In this document: piece after piece, positions 7,938 to 58,376 of the stretch | How the letters are laid out: every line of letters starts with the position of its first letter | How positions within the stretch are numbered: position 1 is the first letter of the stretch | Origin: Candidatus Methanoperedentaceae archaeon | GTDB lineage: Archaea; Halobacteriota; Methanosarcinia; Methanosarcinales; Methanoperedenaceae | DNA: 59,175 nt | Reading direction: 5' to 3' | Assembly (NCBI GenBank): GCA_003104905.1 | Contig: PQAS01000001.1 | Location: 24,966-84,140, forward strand | Translations under genes and position numbers: made by a program | Notes under the pieces: model-generated | What the model was told of the DNA's origin: nothing | Seen by the model: only the letters and a program-made list of their open reading frames with translations | The model's database searches: none

Positions 7938-7964
7938 TTTAAGAACCCATTTTTTCCTTGACTT

Positions 7965-12081: not shown

Positions 12082-12082
12082 A

Positions 12083-12832: not shown

Positions 12833-12833
12833 T

Positions 12834-13343: not shown

Positions 13344-13479
13344 TATTATTATTAGTGAGCTTTCGCCCTACAAGTAGGTTTGCTTCCTGCTTAATCGTTT
13401 CTCTAATAAGATTACTCTGATAAACTTCAATTTCATAGCTTGGAAACCATTATTGTTATTGAAATTGTGAATAGCTTCT

Positions 13480-16405: not shown

Positions 16406-16498
16406 AATTACTATGAAGAAAAATAGCGTTCTCTTTGGTGATAATCGGTTATACCCTTTATACATGAAGATATCACTATATTCATCTGGATAAGGATC

Positions 16499-16627
16499 GG
16501 ATAGAGATAAACAACTCTATTTATCCATGGAATAGAAATTTGGCATTGTTACTGCCTAGCGAGAGCTATGTAAGTATATTTGCCACGGACAGGTGAAAAA
16601 ACTGCGTTCTTAGCGTAAGCTTTCACC
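16499..16627 (+). promoter_or_regulatory. Structured leader/operator region upstream of 8-haem cytochrome
   Basis: The 248-base gap before 16654 holds two inverted repeats. ATAGAG (16501-16506) and CTCTAT (16515-16520) pair around an 8-base loop, with outer GGAT/ATCC extension. GGTGAAA (16592-16598) and TTTCACC (16621-16627) pair around 22 bases. An imperfect direct repeat (CTAGCGAGAGCT and CTTAGCGTAAGCT) overlaps the second. The gene has a strong AAAGGAG site. This could be an operator or a structured 5' leader; no known riboswitch was recognised. Confidence 0.4.
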
Positions 16628-16653
16628 GGAATAAAAAAAAAGGAGAAAACTAA

Positions 16654-18219
16654 ATGAAAAATAAAAATATATTATTGTCAGTTCTCGTCATTGCGGCGAT
16701 AGCTGCAGTGGCAATGGCGCTTGTGCCGCCACCGCCAGTGGAACAGAACTTAGGCACATATGATACCAGGGTTGATAAATACACTGAGTCATTGTGTAGA
16801 AATTGTCATGATACAACCACTTTAGGCGGAGTCCCTACGAGACATCACAGTCTTGTAGCAAATAGTAAGATAAATCCAACAAATGGTCTGCCATTCGGTT
16901 GCCAGGATTGCCACCCCGCAACTCCAGGAGAGGGACAGGGCATATTGATTGAAAGGAACTGTGTTGATTGCCACAATGGTTCAGCATTCTGGGGAAATAG
17001 TCTTGGCGCGCAGATAAATATAACAAGACCTCATCATATCAATACATCATATGATTCTGCAGGGATTGGTCAGCCTGCACAGACAAGGCAGTGTAATGTG
17101 TGCCATGGCACCTTCGTAGCCAACTATAACGACAGCCATTATATACCATCATATAACACATCATTCATGATAACTCCATATGCCGACTTCAAGGCATATA
17201 ATGAGACAAGTGGTAAATATTGGGGAGGCTGCTATGCCTGCCATCAGAACTCTTCAGCAGAATCGCCATCCGTCTTGACCCAACACGATACGCATCACGG
17301 TGCTATTTCCGGTTGGGGTAGAGAAGGCGGTATTGGACATCAGAAAGATGCAACACCCGGACGTGCATGTACCTGGTGCCACCTTTTGCTCAATCCGCAT
17401 AATGCAACTGTTAATATAACAATTAATGGTGTTGAAGAAACAGTACTCGAGCTTAGAAATTCTACACTCATGGCGACTGATACTAATTTCGAGCCAGGTA
17501 CTACTATGCCCATTAACGGTACAGGATGCGAGAAATGCCACAGTGTACAGTCAATCCACAATATCCAATATAGCTATGAAACAACTAAAGGACAAGCAGG
17601 TTTCGGCCATATAGGAAATAACTCCGATTGCAACGGTTGCCATGCATCATGGATCGCAGGAAGTGTACCTCTTCAGGGAGCTATTATTCCAACAGTGGAT
17701 AGTGTAACCCCATCTGTAGTATTAGCAGGCAGTGCGAATGCCATTACCATTGCAGGTGTGAACTTTGTCAACGATGCATATACATCAGTTGTATCTGTAG
17801 ATGGAGTAACATATACGCCTGCTTCAATAACCGATACACAGATTGTGGTGAATATCCCGGCGCTGAACGCTGGAGTTCATACATTGCAGCTTGTGAAAGG
17901 AACGGAAAAGAGCAAACTGGCTACATTGACAGTTGTATCACAGGTTGATGTGGTAAAGGCAAAATTGGCCAGCGGAACGATAACCATTACCGGTACGGAA
18001 TTTGGTCCACAGCCTACTGCGGATTTCGCAGATCTTGGTGTATTCGTAACCCATACATCAAAAGTAAAGGGCCAGACAACCACAACTACCTTTAAGGCAA
18101 CTGTAATTTCCTGGACAAATACACAGATCGTTGTCGATGCAGGAACAGCGGCAGTAAACGATAAGTTAACTGTAAAGACACTGAATGGACAGGACTATAC
18201 AAACATAGTAAAGAAGTAA
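16654..18219 (+). CDS. Secreted 8-haem c-type cytochrome with C-terminal IPT/TIG domains
   Basis: The 521-residue protein has a signal peptide (about 1-23), eight CxxCH motifs between residues 49 and 335 (CRNCH, CQDCH, CVDCH, CNVCH, CYACH, CTWCH, CEKCH, CNGCH) and many extra histidines as distal ligands. Two immunoglobulin-like IPT/TIG domains follow (about 345-430 and 435-521), the first starting PTVDSVTPSVV. A strong AAAGGAG lies before the ATG, suggesting high expression. A near-perfect hairpin terminator follows the gene, so it is probably monocistronic. The combination fits an extracellular conductive or surface cytochrome whose Ig domains contact the cell envelope or a partner. It is not closely similar to the paired cytochromes at 1 and 19829. 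Confidence 0.92.
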   Translation: MKNKNILLSVLVIAAIAAVAMALVPPPPVEQNLGTYDTRVDKYTESLCRNCHDTTTLGGVPTRHHSLVANSKINPTNGLPFGCQDCHPATPGEGQGILIERNCVDCHNGSAFWGNSLGAQINITRPHHINTSYDSAGIGQPAQTRQCNVCHGTFVANYNDSHYIPSYNTSFMITPYADFKAYNETSGKYWGGCYACHQNSSAESPSVLTQHDTHHGAISGWGREGGIGHQKDATPGRACTWCHLLLNPHNATVNITINGVEETVLELRNSTLMATDTNFEPGTTMPINGTGCEKCHSVQSIHNIQYSYETTKGQAGFGHIGNNSDCNGCHASWIAGSVPLQGAIIPTVDSVTPSVVLAGSANAITIAGVNFVNDAYTSVVSVDGVTYTPASITDTQIVVNIPALNAGVHTLQLVKGTEKSKLATLTVVSQVDVVKAKLASGTITITGTEFGPQPTADFADLGVFVTHTSKVKGQTTTTTFKATVISWTNTQIVVDAGTAAVNDKLTVKTLNGQDYTNIVKK

Positions 18220-33106: not shown

Positions 33107-34963
33107 CTATGGTTTATAAAACACTTTGAAAGCCAGATCCTTTTCATTAATTGATCGTTCATTTGTCCAGGCAGTACCATCTTTATATGGATCTTTTAAA
33201 GCTGTCCATACACTGATAGCATTGCCCTGCGTGGATTCGGGCGAATCTAAATAAAAGTAGAAAGATTTTCCACTTGAGTTTTCGATTGTTGGAAAGTGGA
33301 ACAAGTACCCCGAATTGTTAACCACCTCAGATGATAGGAATTCATGTCTAAAAATGTCCGAAGACGAATCAGGCGTTTCCTTTAAATGAAATATTACAGT
33401 CTTATTATTCTGTTTATTAAAGTTAAATAATGAAACTTCAATACCTGACATATTTGACTCTCTGGCTTTGAAAGTCTGACCCTTGTTATCATTTCCATAT
33501 ATCTCATCACCTGGTTGTTCACGCTTGATCTGCGCTGCATCAACTTCCAGCGGCGGAGTTAACCGTGCTCCGGGATGTTTTTTATAAATAATCAGAGGTT
33601 CAGGGTACCCGGGACTAGTGAGATGTTCCACTTCTGTATAAGATTCTTTAAACCAGGGTTCATTAAGAATAACGCCGATCCAGCTTGAAAACATTGGATT
33701 GTATATTATATAATCAGGTTGATAATTCAAATAAGCCCAGACAAAATTTCCCTTTCTTACCCAGTCAGAAGCTCCGGGTGTAACAAGACCCAAAAGATCA
33801 ATGATCTGGCGCTCCGAATAATAGCCAATTTGACCAATTTCAAGGTATGCGATACTGGATCCGGGTTCAGAATTGGCGATGAACCATTTTCCGGTGGCTG
33901 TATTAAGTTGATTTACTGGATTCGGATAGTGATGATTGATATCGACCTGTACTTCGGCGGCAGCAGCAAATATGATCAAAACGATAACTATGATCGGTCC
34001 TGCCTTATAAATTGGTCCGATGCGGGATCGAAATATTTCCAGCAATTCGATCGAACCCATCGCTGCCAATATTGAAATAGCCAGTCCTATATGGGCAATA
34101 TACCAGTGGTAGAACGGTACATCCAGTATCAAATATGCAACTGTCTGGAACACGATCCAGAAAAATAGAATAGACCATCCTCTGCCTTTCTTGATGAAAT
34201 ATTGAACACCAAAAACCAGAAGAGGTATGAATGCCAGGTAAAACAGGTCAATATTTTGGACCATTCTATGCATCCACCAGGCCGCCGTATAGATGAAAGA
34301 TCCCAGGCCTGCCTGTCTTTGCGCAATTTTGGCACCCATGGAATTAGTAAGAGGGGATCCGAAATAAAAGAATGAAAAAATAAGCCATGGGAGCATTGTT
34401 AAAATGGCAATAACTGAAGCGCGAAGCGGGAATTTGCGCCTTGTTAGAATAAAATGTCCACAGAATAAAGCAGCCGGAATAATGCCCTCAACTCGATTCA
34501 AAATAGATAATGCAAGCAAGAATGCAGGGAGATAAATTTGTCCACGACAATAGTAAAAATAGAAGGCTGCGGTAACAAAAAATAAATAAATTGGTGTTTC
34601 GCTGCCAAGGGTCATTACGATCAGAGGATTTATCAAAGTAAATATAGCAGCCAGTGCACCTAACATTCTTTGACCAAAAGAGCGGCCTATCGCATAAACA
34701 AATAAACTGAGTAACAGAAGCGATACGCAACTTATTAATCCACCAACTTGAGGAATTGTAAGAAAAGCGGCTAAATATTTTCCTATTACTAACAACAACA
34801 CAAAAAAAGGAGCAGGAGTACCCAAGAATTTTTCGCCAATATTATAGACAAATCCATTTCCTGAAAGGATATTCTTTGCATAACGAAAAGCAAGGAAAAC
34901 ATCATCATAAGTAATATCATAAAAGCTTATAGTTAAAATAAACCCGGTTAATATTAATCCCAT
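33107..34963 (-). CDS. Polytopic GT-C-type glycosyltransferase (ArnT/AftB-like layout)
   Basis: The 618-residue protein has about ten hydrophobic helices in residues 1-340, then a soluble extracytoplasmic domain. The first loop holds ITYDDVFLAFRYAKN and YNIGEKFLGTPAPFF, the pattern of membrane arabinofuranosyl/mannosyl-type GT-C enzymes in which the Asp pair is catalytic. The C-terminal 150 residues look like a beta-sandwich module. The only ATG near the beginning is at 34963; the frame is open for 16 codons upstream without a good start. It probably adds sugars from a polyprenyl-phosphate donor to the surface glycan on the outer face. It forms an operon with the GalE-like gene. Confidence 0.75.
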   Translation of the reverse strand: MGLILTGFILTISFYDITYDDVFLAFRYAKNILSGNGFVYNIGEKFLGTPAPFFVLLLVIGKYLAAFLTIPQVGGLISCVSLLLLSLFVYAIGRSFGQRMLGALAAIFTLINPLIVMTLGSETPIYLFFVTAAFYFYYCRGQIYLPAFLLALSILNRVEGIIPAALFCGHFILTRRKFPLRASVIAILTMLPWLIFSFFYFGSPLTNSMGAKIAQRQAGLGSFIYTAAWWMHRMVQNIDLFYLAFIPLLVFGVQYFIKKGRGWSILFFWIVFQTVAYLILDVPFYHWYIAHIGLAISILAAMGSIELLEIFRSRIGPIYKAGPIIVIVLIIFAAAAEVQVDINHHYPNPVNQLNTATGKWFIANSEPGSSIAYLEIGQIGYYSERQIIDLLGLVTPGASDWVRKGNFVWAYLNYQPDYIIYNPMFSSWIGVILNEPWFKESYTEVEHLTSPGYPEPLIIYKKHPGARLTPPLEVDAAQIKREQPGDEIYGNDNKGQTFKARESNMSGIEVSLFNFNKQNNKTVIFHLKETPDSSSDIFRHEFLSSEVVNNSGYLFHFPTIENSSGKSFYFYLDSPESTQGNAISVWTALKDPYKDGTAWTNERSINEKDLAFKVFYKP

Positions 34964-37907: not shown

Positions 37908-40900
37908 CTATTCTTTTTTTTGGCTTAGATTGCTGATGGCTTCCGAAAAGAAACTCAGATATTGCTGAGCCACGTTCTCAAGATCAAATTGAGCATTAAA
38001 AATGATACGGGCATTACGCTTATGTTCCTCTAACAATGCTTGATCCCTTAAATAGCGCAGCATTGCTTCTTTCAGGGCTTCCTCGAACAATTTTTGGGTC
38101 AGATCGTGTTGAATAAGTAATCCAGCTTTCCTGCCATCACAAACGATCATTTCCGGGATCGAGCCCATAGTAGTAGCAATCACAGGTTTTCCGCATGCTA
38201 GATACTCTATCACCGTGGAAGGCATAGACTCTGACACGAATCGGGATGGAAGAAGACCGATATCACATAAAAAGATAGCAGGCAACGGATCTTGCATCAA
38301 TCCTTTAAATTCAATTTCCTCATACTTAGCATATTTCTTTCCCAATGTTTGGGCATACTCCCCATCTCCTATCAACCAAAGGTTTGCTTTTTTCCCTCTA
38401 CGCATTTCAGACCGAAGCTCGTTAATTTGTAAAGTTGCATTGATTGCTTCTTCCCACCCCTTTTCGGGTATCGCGCGAGAGCAGAGGCAAAAAATAAAAT
38501 CATTCACATTTCGTTCAAAAGGGCCATTTATTGAATTCGGTATAGAGGATGGATCAAGCCCGTTATTGAATTGTCTTAACAATGCGGGTTTTGGGGCTAA
38601 TCCTTTTTCAAAGATCGCTAAATTTTTTGAGCTCGAATAGCATAATCCTGTGGCCAATTGCATGATCATAGGCGCTAATTTTTTGAATTCTGGGTCCCAT
38701 TCAGGGTGTGCTGCAAGCGCCTCATAGCACCCGTGCATCTGAATGAACCACGGTATTCGAAGCTCTCCATTAACAGCAAATACAAACCTGTCCGCCCACC
38801 AGATATGGGACATAATAATATCAATTCTATAAAACTCAATGAGATCACGAACAATGTCAATCCTTCGGGGTGTTTCAGATATTCGACTATTCAGATGGAC
38901 TGTCGATCGTGCACCTTTGCTCCATTCGCTCCTCCCCAGGATCCCTTCAAGGAAAACGATATCTGGGCTGACCCGATTGACAAATTGTGTATCAATAGCT
39001 TCTGGACGTGCATTACAAAGAAAGATGCGATGGTCCTTTGACCACTGATTGGCTAGTCGCACTGCAGCGATCTGCCCTCCACCGACTTCAGCATCTCCAA
39101 TAACAATCAACAGACACTTCTGGCTCTTTTTTTGCAGGAGTACATTTGATACCGATTCTCGCAATCGTTCTACCCATGGGATAAGCACTGGATTCTTCAT
39201 GAATCGTGGACGAGAGAGGTTATGTAACTCACCCAAACGATGATACTCAGACACCACATGAGCAACACAGGGAGCGATTCTGTTTGTAGGAAGTTTTATT
39301 TGTTCAATTATCCATGTTTTCACCTTCAATTGCTCAATAATCGCCCTTTCATCTAACTCATTTTTGTTAGTTACAGTCTCTCCATGGCGTCGATGAAAAT
39401 TTAATACATCTGGAACGAATGCAATTTTACCATTTAGTAGCAAATTAATATAAAAGAACCAATCACCCACAAATCGGAATTCATGTATTCCTTCAGGTAT
39501 GGTAACTCCTTTCCTGCGAAATACAACAGCACTTGCATTTGGAATGGTATTCTTTATCGAAAGATAATCACGGATTTCATCAATACCTTTGTTCGTATAT
39601 GCTGAGTTCCAGCGAGTTTCTGATAGGTCGGCCGTATAAGATCGATAGTCTGGCATATACAAGTGACCTTTCTCATCCACTGGTGCTGATTGTGAATAAG
39701 CAAGTACGACTTCTGGATCAGAGAAAGCAGGAATAAGGCGGTCCAGGAATCGCTTATCACAAAAATCATCTGCTTCAGCTATCCAGACATAATCACCTCG
39801 TGCTGCTTTAATTCCTTTTTCCCACTGCTTGAATGCTGAGCCGGAATTTACCTTGTTAGAGATTATTTTCACAGGAATAGTACAATTTTTTGTGAGATTT
39901 TTTGCACATTCCATACTATTATCCGAGGAACAATCGTCAAGAAATAAAATTTCATAGACGGGATAGGTTTGATCAAATATAGAAAATATTCTTTCTTCCA
40001 AATATTTTTCATAATTATAATTAGGGATTACAACACTGACTTTTTTATATTCATGCCCAAATAATGAGAGTAAGAAATACACATAATCAATAAAATTATA
40101 TTTTTTACTTATCAATTCTGACGCATTTTTACCCAAATTATCCCGACGTTTAGGGTCATTTAGAAGGGAAATCACTGCTTTTGTCATCTCATTGATATCA
40201 AGATATGGAACAAGAATACCGGTGTTTTCATTTACAATATCCTTGAATCCACCCGCATCCATAAAACCAATAATTGGTACTTCAACATCCATAGCTTCGA
40301 GTACAGTCGAAGGAAAAGGATCTTCTCTTGAGGTCATAAGATATATGTCTGAACCTGCGTAAAAAAGACTTGGCTCTTTTTGAAGTCCAACAAAACGAAT
40401 GTTATTTTCAAGTCCTGATTTTTTAATATCAGAGAAAACATTCTTCATAAAATTGTTATCATATTGACCTACCCAGACAAAATATGACGTGGAATCTGAT
40501 TGAATAACATTTTTCGCAATTTGTACAAATAGATCAATCCCTTTCCTGAAATCTGCATATCCTACACCTAATATAATTTTAGAATTAGGAAGGATTGAAA
40601 GTAACTTTCTGAGCGCAATTTTAGCTTCTTCTCTTTTCTCCTTAAAATTATTTCGTAAATATAGGCCCTGTGGTGCGATGATGCATTTTTTTTCATCTAA
40701 TTTAGCTAAAGTGGCAAATTTTGATTTTACATATTCAGACGGAAAAATAATTGTGTCAGCATACTGTGCTATAATTTCTGCATTTTTTTCCATTCTATAA
40801 TCTTTTATTATACCTGGAAGCTCATGGATCAATGATATTGTTTTAATATTATATTTATTAAATAATTCAATATAGTCTCCGGATACAACTGTATTACAGA

Positions 40901-43900
40901 TAGCAATATCTGCGCCATTAGAACGAAGTTCTTGAATCAAATCTTCCAATTTTTTGAGAGAAATAAAATCTTTTTCTATATTATATACAGTTGAATGTTT
41001 TTGGAATTCAGTTTCGAGAGGTCCACCAGACTTTAAAATTAAATAAATATTATATTTAAATAAGTCTTTCAGATTTTTTATAATGTTTAAAGAAATCAAT
41101 TGAGCACCGTTGTAGTTTGCATCATGAGAAACAAAAATCACTTTACGGCTCTCTATTGTATTAGATCTATATTCAAGAATCACCTCAGATGTTGCTTGAA
41201 GGTAACCATAACCATATTTTATGTCCGGCTCTAAATATGCCCCTTCTGCCCATTCATTCCATGCATTTATGAATACAAATCTCTCTTCTTTTTTATGCAC
41301 ATTTCTGGAAAATTTTGCTACATTTGATAACCACTGTTTATATGTTTCCGGATTAGAACCATAAAATATTGCTGCATTTTTTGGCTTCCTAGCGGTATTG
41401 TCCCATCCAGGGGATACTGTTTTGAATAACTTATATGGGGTGATTTTGAGATAATTGTTTGATTTAACAAAATCTTTAAAGTCAAGAATGTTTCCCGAAA
41501 AATCTGGATTGAGAACTTTAATTTTATTAGTTATAATCCTGCAATCATGAAGTGTATGAGGTGGAAATTCTACTGCAGCATCGAATCCGTATGGCTGTGG
41601 ATCAACGAAGCCAAAACTCTGTGCTGCCACAAGATATATATCTCCTATCCCTTGCTTTTTACAATATTCTCTCCATCGTTCTGCTGTTTTCTTTGCATCA
41701 GGTAATAACATTACTCTATATACAATTAACACAGGTTTTCCATCAATTTTAATATATCGTGGATCTCTGAAGAAAGGTTCGAGATCTTTGATAAATGCGA
41801 GGTCATTCTCGATAGAGTGTGTTTGTGCGATTAGTATCTCATTATCAAGCCCATCCCATCTTCGTGTCCAATTTTCATTCGCCCAGCAGATACAAAATTT
41901 TATATCCAGTTCAGGATTTTTTAGAAATTGATTCAATGGTGTTTCTAACAATTTTTTTCCATTAAACCAATAATAATGAAAACAAAAACCATAGATTCCA
42001 TATTGATGAGCTAGTTCAATTTGCCGTTTCATTACTTCGATTAGCCTTAAATCATAAAAACCCAATTCGTCGGGTAAACGTGGCTGATAATGACCATTAA
42101 ATTGTGGTACTGCTTTTGCGACATTTCTCCAATCAGTAAATCCCTTACCCCACCACTGATCGTTTTCAGGAATTGGATGATATTGAGGTAAATAAAATGC
42201 TATCAATTTTATATCATTTTCTGTTAAATTTATATTGGTCTGTGATAATGCCACATATTCCGGGGATTTCTTGCTAGCTCTGTTGAATAAATCCAAAGTA
42301 TATTGTTTATCTAAACGACTTCCTTTATTATATTTAGTAATATTGGATATTCCTGATGATTCATCATTATCAGCTATTTTAATTTTTTTGCCTGAATGCC
42401 AGTATTCATTAAAGTTAGATATTGTTTGCTTAAATCCGACATTTACTATTGACCTCATTCCTTTGATTCCTAAATCATATAATTTCCTTCTTCCCGTTTC
42501 TTGTGGAAATAACCTTTCTATAACAGTATGAAATTTTTTCACAGTCCGCCATGTGACACTTTGATGAATATCTTTCAGCGCGTCGTTGAGTCCACTGATC
42601 TGAACATCTCTGGTTTGTAAGGCAGTATTGAGTCCACTGATCTGAACATCTCTGGTTTGTAAGGCAGTATTGAGTCCACTTATGTGGGTATCTTTGGATT
42701 GTATCGTGCTTTTAAGTTCATTGATCTGGATATCCCTGACCTGTATGGCGTTAGCCTTCTCTTTCAACTCTATATCCTTTCCTTTAAGTTCTTTATCTTT
42801 CAATTCTTTATATCTTTGATTACTATAAAAGTCCTTTATATTCTTGATAAAGGACTGAAGCATTTCGTATTTTATGCTGAATTCTTTATCTGATTTAGGA
42901 TCATTTGCATGAATATCTGAAAAATCCATTTTTGTATCATTCTTAATGATAATGATTGCCTGCCTGTAAGCAGGATTTAAATTATCTAATAAGTAAAAAT
43001 TCTTATTGTAGAACTCATTCAATTCTTCAATACTTTTTGAAAATTCCGGCATACCTTCGGTTAGTAGAAATGTAGAGATCATTTCAAACCAGCGTGGAAG
43101 ATATCCATTTGGTATCACTGCATATTTAAACCTGGATTTTTTCACAAGTTCGATCGTAAATGGCAGCGAGGGCAAACCATTCTGGATGTGTTCATGGAGC
43201 CACACATACTCCGTACCATGGCTGAGTTTATACAACTCGTTCGCCAGTATCTCATTTTCCCTGACTCCGGGTGTATCAAATGGTGCAGCTATTATGGTGG
43301 CAATTCTTGAGAGATGAAGAAGATTATTTATGAACTTCTCGCGGAAATTGGCAGGTACATGCTCATAGGTATCTACAGAAATAACAAAATCATAAGTCTC
43401 ATCCAGTTCTAATTTTGTGATGTCTCCAATGATGAAGTTGGTTCTTTGTTTATACTCTGGCGGATAATCTTTATCAAGATAATAGATATCGTCACAGGGC
43501 AGGAACTTCTTAAGATTTTCTTCAAAACTTGCGCCTACATCAAGTATCTTAAATGTCTTCTTATCATTTCTGAATTTATTTATTATATCTGAGATTAACC
43601 TGTATCGTTGATATTGGTCAAAAGAGATTGACATATAATACTCCTGTCCTGAATCCCAGTAATATTTTTTTCCATTAAGCGCATCGATTAAGGAAATGTT
43701 AATTGGATAATTCTTACCTGTAAGGGAATCTTTCTTCTTTATTTCCATTAATTTGTTTGAATAGATCAAAGCGAACTGGTATTCGTTTTCACATGTCAAA
43801 GTTCTCTCTTCCAAAATGACGTCCTTCTTATCTTCAAGAATGGTTTTGAGAGAATGACCTTCAAGCCCCACTTCCTTGTATTCATAATCATATAAAGAGA

Positions 43901-44753
43901 GTATGGTAGGCATTATATCAATATTGCTTATATGTATGTTCCTTTCGCCTGGTTTTATCCCTATCCCTTTATGCGGCTTAATAATTAATGGCACAGCTAT
44001 CTGGTCTAAAGTAACTGACAATCCATTTTCTAAGAAAACGTTATTTTCACCAAAAGATACTCCATGATCAGAAGTAATAAAAATCAGGGAATCCTCGTAT
44101 ATACTAAGCTTCCTTAGTTTTTCTATAAATTTTCCGATGTTATCATCAATAAATCGGATGCAACCATCGTATTGGGCCTTATAATACCGGATGTCATTTT
44201 TATCGGAAAGATTCGGGTTATATTCAGGAGAACCATAAAATTCATCCTTCAGGAACATATTCTTATAAGATTCCGGACTTATGTATGACACATGAGCATC
44301 GAAATAATGAACGAACATGAAAAAGTCATGCATGTGGTTCACATCAAGCCAACTGAATATCTTCTCATTTGTTGCATGGCAATTTCTTCTTTCCTTTGCA
44401 TCATCGAATATATCAAAACCAGGATTAAGACCTGAAAGCCCTTGGCAACCTGAGAAAGCGGACGTCCTGTAATTGTTTTCTTTCAAAATAGAAGCTAAAG
44501 TCCTTTCAGCCTGCGCATTCAACTTTCCTTCCGGATCAAAGCCTATCGAATGATTATCGGGATGTTTGGACGTTAATATCGATGCGATAGAAGGAACGGT
44601 ATTTGAGCATACTGAAAAAGCATGTTTGAACAATATCCCGCTTTCTGCCAGTGCATCTATATTCGGGCTTGTATTTCTTTCATAACCATAACATCCTAAA
44701 TGATCCTTTCTCAGTGAATCGATGATTATCAGGATGATCTTTTTCGGTTTCAT
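37908..44753 (-). CDS. Giant 2281-residue sulfatase-like / methyltransferase / WbsX / GT4 / GT2 / GT4 fusion
   Basis: Domain order: sulfatase/alkaline-phosphatase-superfamily (about 1-370; metal Asp12 in IIDSLR, HGVSFGEN; Thr52 in NTVPSIASILT at the nucleophile place instead of Cys/Ser); class I methyltransferase (about 385-610; ILDVGAS, DTYEHVP); coiled coil with 14-residue repeats (about 645-735); QSVTWR and a short helical segment; WbsX/GT99-like domain (about 840-1195; FYLPQYHPIPENDQWW, FCFHYYWFNG); GT4 (about 1200-1560; SREDPFPSTVLEAMD); GT2 (about 1570-1830; VVIPNYNYEKY, EADDF); GT4 (about 1875-2270; SESMPSTVIEYLACGKP). The frame is unbroken over 6.8 kb. There is no signal peptide, so it acts in the cytoplasm. 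It follows wzt by 220 bases on the same strand. It could build, cap and measure a surface glycan. Confidence 0.9.
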   Translation of the reverse strand: MKPKKIILIIIDSLRKDHLGCYGYERNTSPNIDALAESGILFKHAFSVCSNTVPSIASILTSKHPDNHSIGFDPEGKLNAQAERTLASILKENNYRTSAFSGCQGLSGLNPGFDIFDDAKERRNCHATNEKIFSWLDVNHMHDFFMFVHYFDAHVSYISPESYKNMFLKDEFYGSPEYNPNLSDKNDIRYYKAQYDGCIRFIDDNIGKFIEKLRKLSIYEDSLIFITSDHGVSFGENNVFLENGLSVTLDQIAVPLIIKPHKGIGIKPGERNIHISNIDIMPTILSLYDYEYKEVGLEGHSLKTILEDKKDVILEERTLTCENEYQFALIYSNKLMEIKKKDSLTGKNYPINISLIDALNGKKYYWDSGQEYYMSISFDQYQRYRLISDIINKFRNDKKTFKILDVGASFEENLKKFLPCDDIYYLDKDYPPEYKQRTNFIIGDITKLELDETYDFVISVDTYEHVPANFREKFINNLLHLSRIATIIAAPFDTPGVRENEILANELYKLSHGTEYVWLHEHIQNGLPSLPFTIELVKKSRFKYAVIPNGYLPRWFEMISTFLLTEGMPEFSKSIEELNEFYNKNFYLLDNLNPAYRQAIIIIKNDTKMDFSDIHANDPKSDKEFSIKYEMLQSFIKNIKDFYSNQRYKELKDKELKGKDIELKEKANAIQVRDIQINELKSTIQSKDTHISGLNTALQTRDVQISGLNTALQTRDVQISGLNDALKDIHQSVTWRTVKKFHTVIERLFPQETGRRKLYDLGIKGMRSIVNVGFKQTISNFNEYWHSGKKIKIADNDESSGISNITKYNKGSRLDKQYTLDLFNRASKKSPEYVALSQTNINLTENDIKLIAFYLPQYHPIPENDQWWGKGFTDWRNVAKAVPQFNGHYQPRLPDELGFYDLRLIEVMKRQIELAHQYGIYGFCFHYYWFNGKKLLETPLNQFLKNPELDIKFCICWANENWTRRWDGLDNEILIAQTHSIENDLAFIKDLEPFFRDPRYIKIDGKPVLIVYRVMLLPDAKKTAERWREYCKKQGIGDIYLVAAQSFGFVDPQPYGFDAAVEFPPHTLHDCRIITNKIKVLNPDFSGNILDFKDFVKSNNYLKITPYKLFKTVSPGWDNTARKPKNAAIFYGSNPETYKQWLSNVAKFSRNVHKKEERFVFINAWNEWAEGAYLEPDIKYGYGYLQATSEVILEYRSNTIESRKVIFVSHDANYNGAQLISLNIIKNLKDLFKYNIYLILKSGGPLETEFQKHSTVYNIEKDFISLKKLEDLIQELRSNGADIAICNTVVSGDYIELFNKYNIKTISLIHELPGIIKDYRMEKNAEIIAQYADTIIFPSEYVKSKFATLAKLDEKKCIIAPQGLYLRNNFKEKREEAKIALRKLLSILPNSKIILGVGYADFRKGIDLFVQIAKNVIQSDSTSYFVWVGQYDNNFMKNVFSDIKKSGLENNIRFVGLQKEPSLFYAGSDIYLMTSREDPFPSTVLEAMDVEVPIIGFMDAGGFKDIVNENTGILVPYLDINEMTKAVISLLNDPKRRDNLGKNASELISKKYNFIDYVYFLLSLFGHEYKKVSVVIPNYNYEKYLEERIFSIFDQTYPVYEILFLDDCSSDNSMECAKNLTKNCTIPVKIISNKVNSGSAFKQWEKGIKAARGDYVWIAEADDFCDKRFLDRLIPAFSDPEVVLAYSQSAPVDEKGHLYMPDYRSYTADLSETRWNSAYTNKGIDEIRDYLSIKNTIPNASAVVFRRKGVTIPEGIHEFRFVGDWFFYINLLLNGKIAFVPDVLNFHRRHGETVTNKNELDERAIIEQLKVKTWIIEQIKLPTNRIAPCVAHVVSEYHRLGELHNLSRPRFMKNPVLIPWVERLRESVSNVLLQKKSQKCLLIVIGDAEVGGGQIAAVRLANQWSKDHRIFLCNARPEAIDTQFVNRVSPDIVFLEGILGRSEWSKGARSTVHLNSRISETPRRIDIVRDLIEFYRIDIIMSHIWWADRFVFAVNGELRIPWFIQMHGCYEALAAHPEWDPEFKKLAPMIMQLATGLCYSSSKNLAIFEKGLAPKPALLRQFNNGLDPSSIPNSINGPFERNVNDFIFCLCSRAIPEKGWEEAINATLQINELRSEMRRGKKANLWLIGDGEYAQTLGKKYAKYEEIEFKGLMQDPLPAIFLCDIGLLPSRFVSESMPSTVIEYLACGKPVIATTMGSIPEMIVCDGRKAGLLIQHDLTQKLFEEALKEAMLRYLRDQALLEEHKRNARIIFNAQFDLENVAQQYLSFFSEAISNLSQKKE
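42591..42674 (-). repeat. Two identical tandem 42-bp repeats in the coiled-coil part of the giant fusion
   Basis: Bases 42591-42632 and 42633-42674 are identical 42-base copies, each coding 14 residues (two heptads, RDVQISGLNTALQT). Diverged copies flank them on both sides (KDTHISGLNTALQT and RDVQISGLNDALKD), giving four 14-mers in all. Because the unit is a multiple of three and of seven residues, gain or loss would lengthen the coiled coil without breaking frame or heptad register. Confidence 0.9.
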
Positions 44754-44973: not shown

Positions 44974-46302
44974 TCACTCCGTTCCATACTTCCATCTGCA
45001 TGGTATGTAAAATATGCCATAATCTTTTCGTTTTTCATCCTCCACTTTGAACTTGAATCTTCTTTCATGGTGGTCAAAAGCATTGACACAGGCAAAATCA
45101 TATACAGCAGCTGTAAACAGATACGTTCCGTTCAATAAAGGCAAAGAATCGATGATATATTCAACTATTCCATCTCCCTCGACACTTTCAATAACATTAT
45201 CATGGAATTTTGTATTTGGTCCCGTTATATGTGTTCCATCGTTCCTATGTATGGCGATCCCAAATATCGGTTTTTCAATTCTTTTTTTCGCAGAATACGT
45301 TATTCTTGCAACGAGGGTTTCCCCTGTCCTGAAAATGTATTTTTCTTCTCCATTCTGATCATAGAATCGGACTTGTGTTATCTCAATTTCACCCGATCCC
45401 CACCTATCCTTTGGTGGTTCAATCTTGGGAGGTTCCACCTTTTCATGTACAACTTCAACAGGTTTCAACGGAGATTCTGGCAGTACTATAATCTCCGGCT
45501 GTTTTTTCAGGACTTCCTCTTCAATTATGCGCATGTTACTGCGATAGTCATCGATCACCCTTTCACTATTCCCCATTGAAACTATCTTTCCATGTTCAAG
45601 CAGTATAGCCCTGTCGCAAAATCTCTTAATTGTTTCCAGATCATGCGAAACAAGGACTATGGTTTTTCCGCTCATTTTGAACTCATTCATCTTATCGAAA
45701 CATTTTTTCTGGAATGCCTCATCCCCTACTGCAAGAACTTCATCTATCAGTAATATGTCCGGATCAGTCGCCGTAGCGGTCGCAAATGCAAGCCTCATAT
45801 ACATCCCGCTTGAAAAATTCTTTAGCTTCATCTGTTTAAAACGCGATAGCTCAGCAAATTCGAATATCCCATCAAACCTGTCCTCTATCTCTTTCTTACT
45901 CATCCCCATGACGGCCCCATATAATCTTACATTTTCTTCAGCTGTAAGTTCAGGCTGGAATCCCACGCCCAGTTCAAGAAATGGCGCTATCTTTCCAAAT
46001 ACTTTTACGCTTCCTCCATTATCTGATTGTAGCACACCTGAGAGTATCTTAAGCAGGGTGCTCTTTCCGCTTCCGTTCTCACCCACTAAACCCAGCTTCT
46101 CACCTTTTTTTACCTTGAAGCTTATATTCTTAAGAGCGCTAAATTCCTCATATCCGGAAGACTTACCTTTGATAATGCCAGCGACATGTTCGAAAAATTT
46201 CGTCTTTTTTTCATGGGGGATATGAAAGCGTTTGGAGACATTCCGCACAATTATTGCATCCTGCTGCGGTTCTTTTGGTCCAGGAGGTTGAAACAAAATC
46301 AT
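44974..46302 (-). CDS. wzt: Polysaccharide ABC exporter ATPase (Wzt-type) with C-terminal sugar-binding domain
   Basis: The 442-residue protein has an ATPase domain (about 15-240) with Walker A GENGSGKST (74-82), signature KNFSSGMYMRLAFA, Walker B DILLIDEVLAVGD and a VSHD switch. After a proline-rich linker (about 270-305) a Wzt_C-type beta domain (about 305-440) follows. In bacteria such domains recognise the capped end of an O-antigen and license export. The start overlaps the Wzm stop (ATGA, 46299-46302). It is the last gene of the rfb-export operon and has the giant fusion downstream. Confidence 0.93.
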   Translation of the reverse strand: MILFQPPGPKEPQQDAIIVRNVSKRFHIPHEKKTKFFEHVAGIIKGKSSGYEEFSALKNISFKVKKGEKLGLVGENGSGKSTLLKILSGVLQSDNGGSVKVFGKIAPFLELGVGFQPELTAEENVRLYGAVMGMSKKEIEDRFDGIFEFAELSRFKQMKLKNFSSGMYMRLAFATATATDPDILLIDEVLAVGDEAFQKKCFDKMNEFKMSGKTIVLVSHDLETIKRFCDRAILLEHGKIVSMGNSERVIDDYRSNMRIIEEEVLKKQPEIIVLPESPLKPVEVVHEKVEPPKIEPPKDRWGSGEIEITQVRFYDQNGEEKYIFRTGETLVARITYSAKKRIEKPIFGIAIHRNDGTHITGPNTKFHDNVIESVEGDGIVEYIIDSLPLLNGTYLFTAAVYDFACVNAFDHHERRFKFKVEDEKRKDYGIFYIPCRWKYGTE

Positions 46303-47066
46303 ATTTCCTCGGCAAATCTAGAGGATAATTTTCTGAATAATAATGACCCAAGTATTAGAAGAACTATTCCATATAATATCACAATCCCAAGATCCATAAG
46401 CTCAGGTAGCTTATTATATAAAAGAACATCTCTGTACATCTCGATCAATCTCGTAATAGGATTCAACATATAATAAAATCTATAGTTTTCCGGTATCAGT
46501 GAAAGTGGATAAACGATCGGTGAAAGGAAAAATCCTATCTGGATAAGTACGTCCCATATCTGGTTCATATCCCTGTAATATACATATAACGATGCCAGAG
46601 CAAGTGCAATACCATACACAATCGGAAAATATAGGATATGCAGCAAAGGAAATAAAAGGATCATAAGAGAAGGTGTAACTCCAAAAATAAAAAGAAGCGG
46701 GATTAAAACAAGAAATTCCAATAGTGAGCTGACCAATGCGGATAACACCACGCTTAGCGTTAATATTTCACGGGGGATAAATATTTTTGTGACAAGGCTT
46801 GCTTTTCCCACAATTGAGGACATAGCCATTGATGTTCCCATAGCAAAAAAACGCCATGCTGTGATGCCGATCAACAAATACAGCGCGAAATGCTCTTGTG
46901 TGGATTTAAAGACATTGCTGAAAACAAAATACAGTACAAGCATCATCAGCAAAGGATTAAGCATTGACCAGGCAAATCCCAGGATAGAACTTGAATATTT
47001 CGTCTTGAGGTCGCTTATCACCAGGTTCTTTATCAATTCTTTATAATCTAAAAAATACATATTCAA
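46299..47066 (-). CDS. wzm: Polysaccharide ABC-2-type permease (Wzm-type)
   Basis: The 255-residue protein begins MNMYFLDYKELIKNLVISDLKTKYSSSILGFAWSMLNPL in split form: an amphipathic head, then the LGFAW.LNPL block typical of Wzm/TagG/KpsM permeases. Six transmembrane helices follow, ending with a short charged tail (RKLSSRFAEEI). It forms the channel through which the lipid-linked polysaccharide passes, powered by Wzt. It lies 20 bases after rfbA and overlaps wzt by four bases. Export through an archaeal single membrane is expected. Confidence 0.92.
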   Translation of the reverse strand: MNMYFLDYKELIKNLVISDLKTKYSSSILGFAWSMLNPLLMMLVLYFVFSNVFKSTQEHFALYLLIGITAWRFFAMGTSMAMSSIVGKASLVTKIFIPREILTLSVVLSALVSSLLEFLVLIPLLFIFGVTPSLMILLFPLLHILYFPIVYGIALALASLYVYYRDMNQIWDVLIQIGFFLSPIVYPLSLIPENYRFYYMLNPITRLIEMYRDVLLYNKLPELMDLGIVILYGIVLLILGSLLFRKLSSRFAEEI

Positions 47067-47086: not shown

Positions 47087-47800
47087 TTATTTTTCCGATT
47101 TCATATTCCTTACCAGTTCACTCGCTCTGAACAGGGACTCAAACGTCCCTGCATCGCTCCAGTATCCGGAAAGTGTGGAATATCTCATCATTCCCATCCT
47201 TATATATTCATTATTGACATCAGTGATCTCAAGCTCGCCCCTTCCGGAAGGCGCAAGTGTTTTAATGATATTGAAAACCCTGGCGTCATAGATATACAAT
47301 CCTGTGACCGCCAAATTGGACTTTGGAACAGCAGGTTTTTCTTCAATTGAAATAATGCCCTCTCCTTTTATCTGTGCAACCCCAAAACGCTTTGCATCCG
47401 GGACTTCTTTTAAAAATATCATCGCGCCGTTCTTAAATGAACTGACAGCCTTTTTCACGTTATCCTGGAAGATATTATCGCCAAGTATAACGGTTACTGG
47501 TCCATCATCAGAAAAATCTTCGGCAAGACCAAGGGCCTGGGCAATACCTCCTGCTTCGTCCTGTATCTCATAAGTAAGATGCACTCCAAATTCTGTCCCT
47601 GAACCCAGGAGTTCGAGGAAATGACCTGCATGACCCCGCCCTGAGACTATCATTATCTCCTTTATCCCTGCGTCAATGAGCGTGAGGAGAGGGTAATATA
47701 TCATGGGCTTATCGTAGACCGGAAGAAGATGTTTATTTGTGATCTTTGTCAATGGGTAGAGGCGTGAGCCTGTTCCGCCTGCAAGGATTATGCCTTTCAT
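47087..47800 (-). CDS. rfbA: Glucose-1-phosphate thymidylyltransferase (short form)
   Basis: The enzyme makes dTDP-glucose from glucose-1-phosphate and dTTP, the first step of dTDP-L-rhamnose synthesis. The 237-residue sequence starts GIILAGGTGSRLYPLT, then KHLLPVYDKPMIYYPL, and has GDNIF and EEKP. It lacks about 50 C-terminal residues found in the bacterial RmlA of about 290 residues, as in short archaeal forms, so allosteric control may differ. It lies between rfbD and wzm in the operon. Confidence 0.93.
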   Translation of the reverse strand: MKGIILAGGTGSRLYPLTKITNKHLLPVYDKPMIYYPLLTLIDAGIKEIMIVSGRGHAGHFLELLGSGTEFGVHLTYEIQDEAGGIAQALGLAEDFSDDGPVTVILGDNIFQDNVKKAVSSFKNGAMIFLKEVPDAKRFGVAQIKGEGIISIEEKPAVPKSNLAVTGLYIYDARVFNIIKTLAPSGRGELEITDVNNEYIRMGMMRYSTLSGYWSDAGTFESLFRASELVRNMKSEK

Positions 47801-47834
47801 ATTATGACTTCCATGTTTTTGTTCATTTAAATAC

Positions 47835-48641
47835 TTAGTTTCTCAATTTTAGATATTCGGATAACGCTTCTCTCCAGTGCCTCATCGGGGTGGTCTTAGT
47901 GTTCACAAGAACAGAATATTTAGGACGAATGGCTTTTCTTGGGAAATCCTTGCTGGTGCACGGCACTGCGTTATTAATGATAGCAGATGCGAATTCGTAC
48001 CATGAGCATATACCCTCGTTGGTGATGTGGTATATTCCAGGAAGAAGTCTGATAATTTCTTCTGTTTTATTTGCAAGATCAAAGGCGTATGTTGGTTTTC
48101 CGAACTGGTCATTTACCACTTTTACAGCGCTCATATCTTTAGATAATTTAAGCATAGTATCCACAAAATTCTTGCCATGCGTTCCAAATAACCACGAAGT
48201 GCGTATGATCCTGAAGTTTTTCAAATTTTTAATTATATTTATTTCACCCATAAGCTTGGAACTGCCATAAATATTAATGGGATCGGGGTTATCGTCTTCA
48301 AAATACTCCTTATTGGAACCATTGAAAACATAGTCCGTGCTATAATGAATGAGTCTTGCACCAGTTAATGCGCAGCCCTCTGCCATATACCCCGGAGCTT
48401 TGCCGTTGACCTCAAATGCCAGCTCTTGATGATCCTCGCAATCATCCACTGCAGTGTAAGCTGCTGAATTTATCACCACGTCCGGCCGATTCTCCTTGAT
48501 AAGATCAATGACATTTTTTCTATCCCTGATGTCAACATCAGTACTCTTTAGCTTTACCGCATCCGGAAATGCCAAGCACAGTTCAGTTCCCAGCATCCCA
48601 CCGGCCCCGAAGATCAGTGTTTTAATTTTTCCCACCACCAT
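47835..48641 (-). CDS. rfbD: dTDP-4-dehydrorhamnose reductase
   Basis: The 268-residue reductase catalyses the final NAD(P)H-dependent step to dTDP-L-rhamnose. It shows the GAGGMLG nucleotide-binding loop, NSAAYTAVDDCE, YSTDYVFNG and the catalytic YGSSKLMGE (Tyr-x-x-x-Lys). The ATG at 48641 overlaps the rfbB coding end by 28 bases; a GTG codon three bases in is an alternative. It is 34 bases upstream of rfbA. Confidence 0.93.
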   Translation of the reverse strand: MVVGKIKTLIFGAGGMLGTELCLAFPDAVKLKSTDVDIRDRKNVIDLIKENRPDVVINSAAYTAVDDCEDHQELAFEVNGKAPGYMAEGCALTGARLIHYSTDYVFNGSNKEYFEDDNPDPINIYGSSKLMGEINIIKNLKNFRIIRTSWLFGTHGKNFVDTMLKLSKDMSAVKVVNDQFGKPTYAFDLANKTEEIIRLLPGIYHITNEGICSWYEFASAIINNAVPCTSKDFPRKAIRPKYSVLVNTKTTPMRHWREALSEYLKLRN

Positions 48642-49570
48642 CTATTCTCAACATACCATCTGATAGTATCATGAAGAGCATCTTCAAATCCATGCTGCGG
48701 CGCCCAGCCGAGCTTTCGAAGCCTTGTACAGTCAAGAGAATAGCGAAGATCATGTCCTGGCCTGTCTTTAACATATTCAACCATTGTATGATCTTTACCA
48801 AGTGTCTCAAGGATGGATTTTGTGATTTCAAGATTTGTTTTCTCAGCCCCGCCGCCAATATTGTAAATTTCGCCAACATTCCCTTTGTGCAGCACAAAAT
48901 CCACCGCTTTGCAGTGATCTTCCACGTATATCCAGTCTCGAACATTCTTTCCGGTTCCATAGACTGGGACTCTTTTGTTCTCGATAAGGTTTGTTATGAA
49001 AAGGGGAATGAGTTTCTCAGGGTACTGGTAGGGTCCGAAGTTATTTGTACATCTGGTAATTATCACGGGCAATCCGTGAGTTATAAAATATGATTGCGCA
49101 AGGAGATCAGACCCGGCTTTGCTTGATGAATATGGGCTTGAAGGCGTAAGTATGTCTGTCTCTTTGAACGACCCTTTGATTATGCTTCCATAAACCTCAT
49201 CCGTTGAAATATGGATAAATCTCTTGATATTATGTTTTAGAGCGCAGTCAAGAAGTACGAATGTACCAAGAACATTTGTCCTGACAAAGGCAGATGCATC
49301 ATCAATTGAGCGGTCAACATGGCTTTCAGCTGCGAAATGCACGACCATATCAATATTTTGGATTAACTTATCAACTACAGCTTTATTGCAGATATCACCC
49401 CGGACAAATTTGTAATTTGAGGATTTTTCAATATCCTTGAGATTATCCGGATTCCCCGCATACGTTTGTAGATCAAGATTAATGATATGGTAGTCGGGAT
49501 ATTTTCCAAGAATATACCGGATAAAATTGCTACCGATAAAACCCAGGCCGCCTGTTATAAGTATATTCAA
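48614..49570 (-). CDS. rfbB: dTDP-glucose 4,6-dehydratase
   Basis: This 318-residue SDR enzyme turns dTDP-glucose into dTDP-4-keto-6-deoxyglucose. It shows the ITGGLGFIGSNF loop, VHFAAESHVDRSI, the STDEVYG triad typical of RmlB (Thr-Asp-Glu), and the catalytic YSSSKAGSD. CTNNFGPYQYPEKLIP is also highly conserved. It lies between rfbC and rfbD in a compact operon. Confidence 0.95.
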   Translation of the reverse strand: MNILITGGLGFIGSNFIRYILGKYPDYHIINLDLQTYAGNPDNLKDIEKSSNYKFVRGDICNKAVVDKLIQNIDMVVHFAAESHVDRSIDDASAFVRTNVLGTFVLLDCALKHNIKRFIHISTDEVYGSIIKGSFKETDILTPSSPYSSSKAGSDLLAQSYFITHGLPVIITRCTNNFGPYQYPEKLIPLFITNLIENKRVPVYGTGKNVRDWIYVEDHCKAVDFVLHKGNVGEIYNIGGGAEKTNLEITKSILETLGKDHTMVEYVKDRPGHDLRYSLDCTRLRKLGWAPQHGFEDALHDTIRWYVENRWWWEKLKH

Positions 49571-49585
49571 TCTTTTTGCCTCTAT

Positions 49586-50059
49586 TCATCCATGTTTCAA
49601 TCCCGGAGTAAGTCCCCAGTCATATGGGATTTCCTTTGTATCGGGAGGTAATCTGTATTCATCGGGTTCTTTATAATTATAAGGAAGTGTAGGAATGCTC
49701 AGAAAATATGCTGTTTCCGTCCCGATACCTTTGAATCCATGATAAACTCCTGGAGGAACACTTATCAATATTGGATTTTTTTCACCCGCGAATAATTCCA
49801 TCAGGTTCCTGTAAGTTGCAGATCCCTCCCTTCCATCATACAGAACAACTTTCATCATACCATGCACACAGGTAAAATTATCGGTTTGTTTTTTATGATA
49901 ATGCCAGCCTTTCACAACACCTGGATAAGCCGTAGTAATATATACCTGTCCGAAATTGGTAAATATGGTATCATCACATCGAAGTATTTCCATCAACCAT
50001 CCACGCTCATCAGGGACGACTTTCAGATTCTTTATTATTACACCGTCAATGTTTTTCAT
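49586..50059 (-). CDS. rfbC: dTDP-4-dehydrorhamnose 3,5-epimerase-like
   Basis: The ATG at 50059 (157 residues) is preferred, since the family usually starts shortly before the DERGWLMEILR block; an ATG nine codons upstream is an alternative. The cupin fold is marked by VVKGWHYHKKQTDNFTCVHG and SVPPGVYHGFKGIG, with the conserved His residues. It epimerises C3 and C5 before reduction by RfbD. It is shorter than bacterial RmlC (about 180 residues), so a related sugar epimerase is possible, but its place next to rfbBDA supports the rhamnose role. It is the first gene of the operon. Confidence 0.88.
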   Translation of the reverse strand: MKNIDGVIIKNLKVVPDERGWLMEILRCDDTIFTNFGQVYITTAYPGVVKGWHYHKKQTDNFTCVHGMMKVVLYDGREGSATYRNLMELFAGEKNPILISVPPGVYHGFKGIGTETAYFLSIPTLPYNYKEPDEYRLPPDTKEIPYDWGLTPGLKHG

Positions 50060-50113
50060 ATTTACTCTATTTTCCAATCCAATCATAGCATTTGTTTACT
50101 TATATAATATATC

Positions 50114-57104: not shown

Positions 57105-58376
57105 TCATTCTTCATGCACCCCTTTCCAGAGATGTCCGTCCCAACGATACACCGATGGCTGTGCCAGACAGCCGCTACTACTTATGAACGGTAAACCGTC
57201 CAACCGTAGATACCTGACAAGCTGGTTGCCAACACCATTAACGTCTGCATTCCGTATGGTATTGCAGTTCAGACACAGGAACATCCCTCTATGGGCTCGA
57301 TGTAATTTGCTTCTGTCTGTGCAACCGCACTGACTGCATCTTCCTTTGGATGTTCCCCGTTCGTCCTGCTTTTTTAATAGTATGCTATGCCGGGCTAATT
57401 TATAGTCCAGTTGAGCGACGACCTGTTGAATCGGGAATTGTTGCCAGTTTTGATTTGATTTTTTATTCCAGTTCTTTCCTGTTCCATCTTTGTTTTTCTT
57501 GATCCCTGTCAGGTCTCCTACTACTACTTCCCTGACGTTTCGCTGTACACATAACTCAACAACTTTGTTGGTCATGCTATGAATTGAATGTTTTATCTGT
57601 TGAGAACCGTGTTTTGACATTTTTCGCAATGCTTTGGAGGATTTCTTCTTTCCTTTTGTTCTTCCCATTACTTCTGATTGGACTCTTGCTTTCTCTTTAT
57701 TCCAATATCTCAGGTTACTTAGGATTTTCCCACCTTTATATATATCCACGTTCCCATATTCATCCATGCTGACTATAGGGTTTCTCATACCAAGATCGAT
57801 TGCCATTACCTGACCATCTTGTTTCCATTCGGGTTCTAGCAGCAGGATTTTAGCATGAAGTTCGAAATATCCTTTTTTTGGTACGATCTCTATTTGCTTG
57901 ATCCTTCCGTTCTCTGGAAACGCAGTGTTCCAATGTAACCTTAGACTGAGTTTCTTATAAGGATATGATATTTCTTGTTTCAACTCAGATGTTGGGGTTA
58001 GAAGGATTGTATTTGTATCTATGATTTTGAAAGCATCTACCATGAAAGAAGATAATTCTTCCTTATTTCTGAATCCGGGGGGTCTTGCTGTTCTGTCTGT
58101 TTTTCTTAGCTTAAACCATGACTTGAAGGCATTGCCGACCTGATGAGCACAATGCTGGTATGTATGTGCAGGTACGAACGAATGAAAATGACTTGCCAAA
58201 ACGACTTTCTGCAAATCGAATCCTGATGGGATTTTACCAGTATAATCCCATGTCTCTTTTGCACCCCATAGAGCAGTATTATAGAGCTTAGTGGCTATCC
58301 AGGACATCCTGCTTAACAACCGGAATGTTGTTATATCCGAGTCTATTCGTGCTACTCTGCTTTCGTATCTTGGCAT
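57105..58376 (-). CDS. tnpB: TnpB-type RNA-guided nuclease-like protein of IS605 family
   Basis: The 423-residue protein has an N-terminal helix-turn-helix and WED-like part, a RuvC domain with Asp194 (AIDLGMRNP), a zinc finger (CSQCG...CLNCN) and a third acid in NADVNG (about 382). TnpB proteins cut DNA with a guide RNA from the element's right end and help keep the element. The RuvC-II strand reads VVVGDLTG, so the usual Glu is replaced by Gly (about 287). A Glu in KKQDERGTSK about 52 residues later may take its place, as in rearranged-site TnpB/Fanzor lineages. The frame is intact. It overlaps tnpA. Confidence 0.93.
   Translation of the reverse strand: MPRYESRVARIDSDITTFRLLSRMSWIATKLYNTALWGAKETWDYTGKIPSGFDLQKVVLASHFHSFVPAHTYQHCAHQVGNAFKSWFKLRKTDRTARPPGFRNKEELSSFMVDAFKIIDTNTILLTPTSELKQEISYPYKKLSLRLHWNTAFPENGRIKQIEIVPKKGYFELHAKILLLEPEWKQDGQVMAIDLGMRNPIVSMDEYGNVDIYKGGKILSNLRYWNKEKARVQSEVMGRTKGKKKSSKALRKMSKHGSQQIKHSIHSMTNKVVELCVQRNVREVVVGDLTGIKKNKDGTGKNWNKKSNQNWQQFPIQQVVAQLDYKLARHSILLKKQDERGTSKGRCSQCGCTDRSKLHRAHRGMFLCLNCNTIRNADVNGVGNQLVRYLRLDGLPFISSSGCLAQPSVYRWDGHLWKGVHEE

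Follow-up and report, generated by a model that had tools for sequence, protein, structure and literature searches.

A 2281-aa Methanoperedens protein that probably assembles a surface sugar chain and also caps it contains a predicted coiled-coil rod with two-heptad repeats and lies beside a Wzt exporter

A protein of 2281 aa from the methane-oxidizing archaeon Candidatus Methanoperedens, encoded in a single uninterrupted open reading frame (ORF), probably carries out both the synthesis and the capping of a cell-surface sugar chain. The ORF lies at positions 37908 to 44753 on the minus strand of the window, which is the whole stretch of 59,175 nucleotides that was analyzed. Its translation carries, in order, a sulfatase-fold domain, a class I SAM methyltransferase, a coiled-coil rod, a module termed TW, and the glycosyltransferase (GT) domains WbsX, GT4, GT2, and GT4, so ordered that the methyltransferase and the rod stand in mid-protein. 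The protein thus joins this domain content to a predicted helical rod with repeats that are multiples of the heptad, its gene is linked to wzt, and the sensor domain of Wzt is coinherited with the methyltransferase. The reading that we favor, with somewhat better than even confidence, is a single-chain polymerase-terminator for a Methanoperedens surface polysaccharide, in which a coiled-coil ruler that steps by heptads, a methyl cap, and export licensed by Wzt would act together. The features of the locus are as follows.

37908 to 44753, minus strand: multidomain polymerase-terminator candidate of 2281 aa (ORF and translation, Pfam)
43887 to 44741, minus strand: Sulfatase domain PF00884 (alkaline-phosphatase superfamily), aa 5 to 289 (Pfam, 6.2e-43)
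42945 to 43628, minus strand: class I SAM-dependent methyltransferase domain, about aa 376 to 603 (AlphaFold/Foldseek, Pfam matches of homologues)
42510 to 42881, minus strand: coiled-coil rod, aa 625 to 748 (single AlphaFold helix, 3.5-residue period)
42586 to 42680, minus strand: perfect 42-bp tandem array with the 14-aa unit TALQTRDVQISGLN (2.3 copies, 100% match, score 190)
42411 to 42566, minus strand: TW module, aa 730 to 781 (home-made HMM, hydrophobic moment)
41190 to 42206, minus strand: WbsX glycosyltransferase-like domain, aa 850 to 1188 (PF14307, 3e-137)
40089 to 41036, minus strand: GT4 domain, about aa 1240 to 1555 (PF00534/PF13692)
39402 to 40037, minus strand: GT2 domain, about aa 1573 to 1784 (PF00535, 5e-28)
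37941 to 39056, minus strand: C-terminal GT4 domain, about aa 1900 to 2271 (second PF00534/PF13692 stretch, and TIGR03088 at aa 2073 to 2271)
44974 to 46302, minus strand: Wzt, ATPase of a polysaccharide-export ABC transporter (PF00005 and Wzt_C)
45007 to 45411, minus strand: C-terminal carbohydrate-binding domain of Wzt (PF14524, 2.5e-28)
46299 to 47066, minus strand: Wzm, ABC-2 membrane subunit (PF01061, 2.5e-19)
47087 to 50086, minus strand: rmlA, rmlD, rmlB, and rmlC (assigned by reading translations)

The wzm-wzt pair and the dTDP-rhamnose genes lie upstream of the 2281-aa ORF, and, as read from their translations, the four sugar-nucleotide genes follow the dTDP-rhamnose pathway in order. 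A preliminary description of this DNA had put wzt, with its C-terminal domain, 220 bp upstream of the methyltransferase; this distance is correct for the start of the ORF, and the methyltransferase itself begins approximately 1.1 kb inside it. Elsewhere in the window, a protein of 618 aa (33107 to 34963) adjoins the glycosyltransferase genes; it has about nine hydrophobic segments, lacks a confident Pfam match, and is perhaps a GT-C type transferase, and an IS605 OrfB/TnpB-type transposase gene (PF01385, with a Cas12f1-like TNB domain) is located at 57105 to 58376.

The same description had reported a methyltransferase followed by a coiled coil with identical 42-bp tandem repeats, and both parts were borne out, as the methyltransferase precedes the repeat in one reading frame and the 2.3 copies match perfectly. 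Two older and decayed units, spaced at 42 bp, continue the array in register to about position 42749 (88% and 71% over 80 nt). A unit of 42 bp encodes 14 aa, exactly two heptads. The strongest period of hydrophobic residues across aa 655 to 735 was 3.50, equaled by 0.08% of shuffles (p about 0.001), and the period of 3.5 residues held when the duplicated unit was removed (0.16% of shuffles equally strong). An AlphaFold2 model based on 81 relatives had a mean pLDDT of 90 and formed one unbroken helix of 124 residues from aa 625 to 748, with a pLDDT of about 85 to 95 in the repeat region; a model from a three-sequence alignment of the N-terminal 827 aa reached a pLDDT of 35 and was discarded. 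At 0.15 nm per residue, the 124 residues give a predicted rod of ~18 nm. COILS-type scores, which carry supportive weight only, were moderate for the rod (1.2 to 1.3) and low for the repeat unit itself (about 1.0). The coiled-coil propensity expected earlier finds its support in the predicted helix and the hydrophobic period. No second copy of the rod was found in the same genome. The rod is linked to the glycosyltransferases by the TW module, which has the conserved pattern (S/T)xxW...K...P..T.RR..YDL and an amphipathic first helix (hydrophobic moment, 0.72), and which was matched by a home-made HMM in Methanoperedens and in other archaea.

The methyltransferase was modeled with a pLDDT of >90, and the best Foldseek matches of the model were solved SAM methyltransferases (E ~5e-9). 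Homologues from the genus that are 34 to 35% identical to it give significant Pfam methyltransferase matches, and it retains 13 of the 13 residues that are invariant in an 81-sequence alignment of its family. In the sulfatase-fold domain, alignments to solved sulfatases placed Thr52 on the formylglycine Cys/Ser position and Ile56 on the position of the motif Arg, giving T-V-P-S-I in place of the C/S-x-P-x-R sulfatase motif. Thr52 is kept, and the motif Arg is absent, in the two to three relatives that have this domain. Phosphoethanolamine transferases of the MCR-1/MCR type matched the domain over its full length in a single stretch, and no membrane helix was identified within it. An identity as a formylglycine sulfatase is thus unlikely, because of the residues at the active site and the MCR-type match. 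Within the genus, the domain occurs as a fusion in G021 and G013 only, plus one weak stand-alone match, and it was not found beside bacterial members of the methyltransferase family in loci selected by the methyltransferase. The Wzt sensors of G013, which has the domain, and G018, which lacks it, are 89% identical, so the domain probably does not define what Wzt reads; in G000 and G022, a second pair that differs in this domain, the sensors are 74% identical.

Whether the sensor follows the likely cap enzyme was examined with 62 bacterial Wzt sensors encoded beside the same methyltransferase family and 16 other sensors from the genus. The C-terminal domain of the window Wzt passed the curated cutoff of Wzt_C (99.3 bits versus 30.4) and matched the solved Wzt C-terminal domains 8DKY and 6O14 (E about 6e-5) and, weakly, 5HNO (E 0.13), in agreement with the carbohydrate-binding fold anticipated for it. 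All six Methanoperedens Wzt proteins that stand beside this methyltransferase had sensors with median scores of 53 to 93 bits against the bacterial set, versus medians of only 20 to 31 bits against the other sensors of their own genus (p 1e-7 to 1e-9). Four control Wzt proteins of Methanoperedens, beside other methyltransferases, showed no preference for those bacterial sensors. For the Wzt ATPase domains, identity is higher within the genus (about 55 to 68%) than to bacteria (about 43%). As judged from these comparisons, the sensor tracks the methyltransferase family across the divide between bacteria and archaea and the ATPase domain tracks the organism, which is what recognition of a cap predicts; inheritance of sensor and terminator as a block would look alike. 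Counter-cases were also identified: G008 and G030 have sensors of one type (60%) though their methyltransferase families differ; G002 has a related sensor (56%) with no such methyltransferase gene in the stretch seen; and in genomes like those of Archaeoglobus, Methanoculleus, and Methanocella, comparable methyltransferase-coiled coil-TW-GT proteins follow a Wzt that has no C-terminal domain. Rod and cap sensing are therefore separable.

To place the arrangement more broadly, 80 named loci were chosen by the methyltransferase pattern alone and 81 genes were scored. A Wzt with the C-terminal domain ends no more than 150 nt upstream of the methyltransferase in 59 of the 78 loci, bacterial and archaeal, that had at least 1.5 kb of upstream sequence. 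A coiled-coil score of at least 1.4 follows the methyltransferase in 74 of the 80 genes with enough downstream sequence, and in 68 of 80 the score exceeded at least 38 of 40 shuffles. By these neighborhood and coiled-coil counts, the combination of this methyltransferase with a coiled coil and a Wzt sensor is widespread and mostly bacterial. This kind of protein is not unique to the archaeon studied here, as other archaea have it too and it is common among bacteria.

The spacer between the end of the methyltransferase and the TW tryptophan varies in length between species of Methanoperedens (61, 90, 111, 123, and 145 residues) and reaches 230 residues in Methanophagales. Tandem arrays in the spacers of archaeal relatives have periods of 42, 84, 105, and 168 bp, all multiples of 21. 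The period was divisible by 21 bp in seven of seven spacer loci with arrays, a count that is slightly generous because two of the seven come from one Methanophagales genus, versus 4 of 35 unrelated arrays (Fisher, 1.2e-5); the 35 controls were drawn from the same stretches, leaving out other genes that adjoin wzt. Bacterial members also show periods of 138, 96, and 222 bp, which correspond to heptads with a single 11-residue unit added; there are also a few bacterial arrays that fit neither this scheme nor whole heptads. One related contig (G016) ends within its own repeat array. In another genome (L068 in G017, 5333 to 5856), a methyltransferase gene directly after wzt contains five 105-bp repeats with a 99% match, and this array looks very recent.

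In Methanoperedens, the plan of cap enzyme, rod, TW module, and glycosyltransferases was found with three N-terminal options besides the sulfatase-fold domain plus methyltransferase: the same methyltransferase alone (G022, G018, and, as far as the contig reaches, G016), a Methyltransf_24 domain (G008 and G019), and a Methyltransf_23/11 domain (G030). The glycosyltransferase part is also swapped among proteins of this plan. Similar proteins are present in other archaea, including a Methanophagales record, and L172 has the same WbsX-GT4-GT2 order; we take the other archaeal carriers to include Archaeoglobus fulgidus, A. profundus, Methanoculleus marisnigri, and Methanocella paludicola. Seven further Wzt loci in Methanoperedens are of another type, and six of these (L058, L059, L062, L063, L064, and L069) have a different protein after wzt, either directly or past one or two genes. 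This protein has an EINVEEIM N terminus, a repeat-rich middle, and a C-terminal methyltransferase, an order reversed relative to that of the window protein; its tandem units are 45 bp (15 residues) in several loci and 21 bp in others, with differing copy numbers. In L061 (G015, 4838 to 9228), a separate methyltransferase comes after a Wzt that has the C-terminal domain. The next protein, of 1108 aa, contains the kinase-like motif NFDFIPQNIICNRDRVRVIDWEFS but gives no Pfam kinase match; it also has two GT2 domains and a coiled coil encoded by 63-bp repeats. This locus looks like an archaeal terminator of the methyl-phosphate type. Expandable rods beside wzt appear more than once, since both the second layout and the 63-bp-repeat protein of G015 also adjoin wzt.

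Several further arrangements were observed around wzt. In L066 (G020, 4422 to 5768) and L067 (G002, 11946 to 13406), wzt encodes the C-terminal domain, and the gene after it, in the place of the methyltransferase-coiled coil gene, reads like a B12-binding radical SAM enzyme, possibly another cap enzyme. Two short ORFs in L025 (G018, BLZ2; 14613 to 15185 and 16265 to 16819) begin like the N terminus of wzt beside an intact wzt and are apparently partial copies of it. A Bacteroidales metagenome-assembled genome (L077) encodes a Wzt 69% identical to that of the window in both domains, together with a methyltransferase-coiled coil-TW-GT2 gene that carries 42-bp repeats. This may be either a recent transfer or a misbinned archaeal contig, and L077 was set aside as evidence of transfer because an identity of 69% may mean the latter.

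By analogy to WbdD, WbbB, Klebsiella O7 ORF6, and WsaE, we infer capping, recognition of the cap, ruler action, an effect on length, and an S-layer destination for the window system in the following manner. The product would be a surface polysaccharide, probably containing rhamnose and perhaps an S-layer glycan. The C-terminal WbsX-GT4-GT2-GT4 domains would build a lipid-linked chain near the membrane, and the amphipathic first helix of the TW module may sit there, as a similar helix in WbdD does. Capping of the growing end would fall to the N-terminal methyltransferase, with the sulfatase-fold domain assisting or modifying it. The rod of ~18 nm would keep the cap enzyme at a distance from the polymerase, and therefore only chains long enough to reach it would be capped. 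Recognition of the methylated end by the C-terminal domain of Wzt would then license export through Wzm-Wzt. The rod would evolve by tandem gain or loss of 14-residue, two-heptad units, each ~2 nm long, and as such steps keep the coiled-coil register, chain length would shift in steps. If so, repeat number becomes a readable prediction of relative chain length.

A stronger form of this proposal holds that glycan length is not only set but quickly changeable by slippage of the two-heptad units, a contingency-like dial that preserves both frame and register; to the favored reading it adds several origins beside Wzt with different cap enzymes, including the second layout of the genus with its 45-bp (15-residue) units. 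We regard it as possible, though doubtful. Slightly less probable in our judgment is that the coiled coil is a scaffold for oligomerization or tethering whose length is unimportant, with repeats that are neutral slippage, a methyltransferase that decorates the glycan, and export that is blind to length. The occurrence of comparable methyltransferase-coiled coil-TW-GT proteins next to sensorless Wzt in other archaea agrees with a scaffold, neutral tolerance also predicts duplications that keep register, and in Klebsiella O1/O2a, sensorless export couples length to transporter stoichiometry (PMC11231755). What a scaffold leaves unexplained is the tracking of the methyltransferase family by the Wzt sensor across bacteria and archaea, as well as the presence of the coiled coil in nearly all of the surveyed loci, mostly right after a Wzt with a sensor.

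It is improbable that the methyltransferase performs internal O-methylation, leaving modification of the chain end to the sulfatase-fold domain, which might, for instance, transfer a phospho group via its Thr nucleophile. The Thr at the nucleophile position and the match to MCR-1-type phosphoethanolamine transferases fit such a role, and methyl-phosphate caps are known in bacteria (PMC11231755), but the Wzt sensors are nearly the same with and without the domain in the two genome pairs compared above, and no such domain was found with bacterial methyltransferases. Least credible of all, and already largely refuted, is a decayed or chimeric cluster with repeats that are an assembly artifact: the draft genome comes in 59 contigs and the G016 contig stops inside a repeat array, yet the 2281-aa frame is unbroken, the perfect units have decayed ones next to them in register, independent species have the same period with different sequences, and every invariant methyltransferase residue is kept.

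Surface-glycan length control is little known in archaea, and these genes provide a testable set in Methanoperedens and other methane-cycling archaea in which the Wzt sensor domain and the likely cap enzyme stay matched between archaea and bacteria. A quick open-access literature search, which does not prove absence, returned no description of an archaeal Wzt ruler, of Methanoperedens glycan export, or of tandem-repeat coiled coils there.

Experimental precedents in bacteria are WbdD, WbbB, and Klebsiella O7 ORF6 (PMC11231755, PMC5082667). In WbdD, a coiled coil keeps the methyltransferase ~20 nm away from the polymerase (PMC5082667); changes in the length of this coiled coil shift chain length, and the Wzt sensor reads the cap (PMC5082667, PMC3482155). 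The preliminary description had called the window locus a WbdD-like ruler. Its idea of a cap methyltransferase, a heptad-wise spacer, and a Wzt sensor finds good support in the comparisons between genomes, and the likeness lies in a methyltransferase set apart from the polymerase by a coiled coil. The label WbdD-like calls for correction, as the window protein has no kinase and its terminator is fused to glycosyltransferases. WbdD of Escherichia coli O9a is separate from the polymerase WbdA, which it recruits via its C-terminal region, whereas the window protein has glycosyltransferases in the same chain. No kinase domain was found in a Pfam scan or among the NCBIfam matches listed, no WbdD chain was matched at E≤1 when a profile of six methyltransferase relatives was compared with PDB sequences, and WbdD was absent from the best 50 Foldseek matches of the methyltransferase model.

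Among described proteins, WsaE, Klebsiella O7 ORF6, and WbbB come closest. As in the latter two, the domain layout and the predicted rod show a terminating enzyme and polymerase modules parted by an extended coiled coil, and the cognate Wzt has a C-terminal carbohydrate-binding module. WbbB of Klebsiella O12 is likewise a single polypeptide that combines a polymerase and a terminator with a coiled-coil ruler, and its cap is read by the Wzt sensor, but its terminator is a Kdo transferase rather than a methyltransferase (PMC11231755). O7 ORF6 of Klebsiella pneumoniae has an N-terminal methyltransferase, a coiled coil in the middle, and C-terminal glycosyltransferases in a cluster with wzm, wzt, and rml genes; it differs in making a methyl-phosphate cap and in carrying, ahead of the coiled coil, a kinase and an additional carbohydrate-binding domain (PMC11231755), while the window protein has the sulfatase-fold domain ahead of the methyltransferase and another set of glycosyltransferases. 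WsaE, the trifunctional protein of the Geobacillus stearothermophilus S-layer glycan, is similar in that an N-terminal methyltransferase is fused to glycosyltransferases; its gene adjoins wzm-wzt in a cluster that also has rml genes (PMC2943079). It adds a 2-O-methyl cap proposed to end the chain and to be read by Wzt; no ruler is reported for it, and according to a review, length control possibly needs an additional factor (PMC2943079). Two glycosyltransferase domains, and no sulfatase-fold or WbsX domain, are described for WsaE (PMC2943079). The window protein has the same arrangement after wzm-wzt, though the sulfatase-fold domain comes first. WsaE was likened by description, and the sequence comparison used a Paenibacillus protein of like layout that has the same methyltransferase family in the order methyltransferase-coiled coil-GT2-GT2, directly after a Wzt with a sensor. 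The findings would extend the bacterial polymerase-terminator model to archaea.
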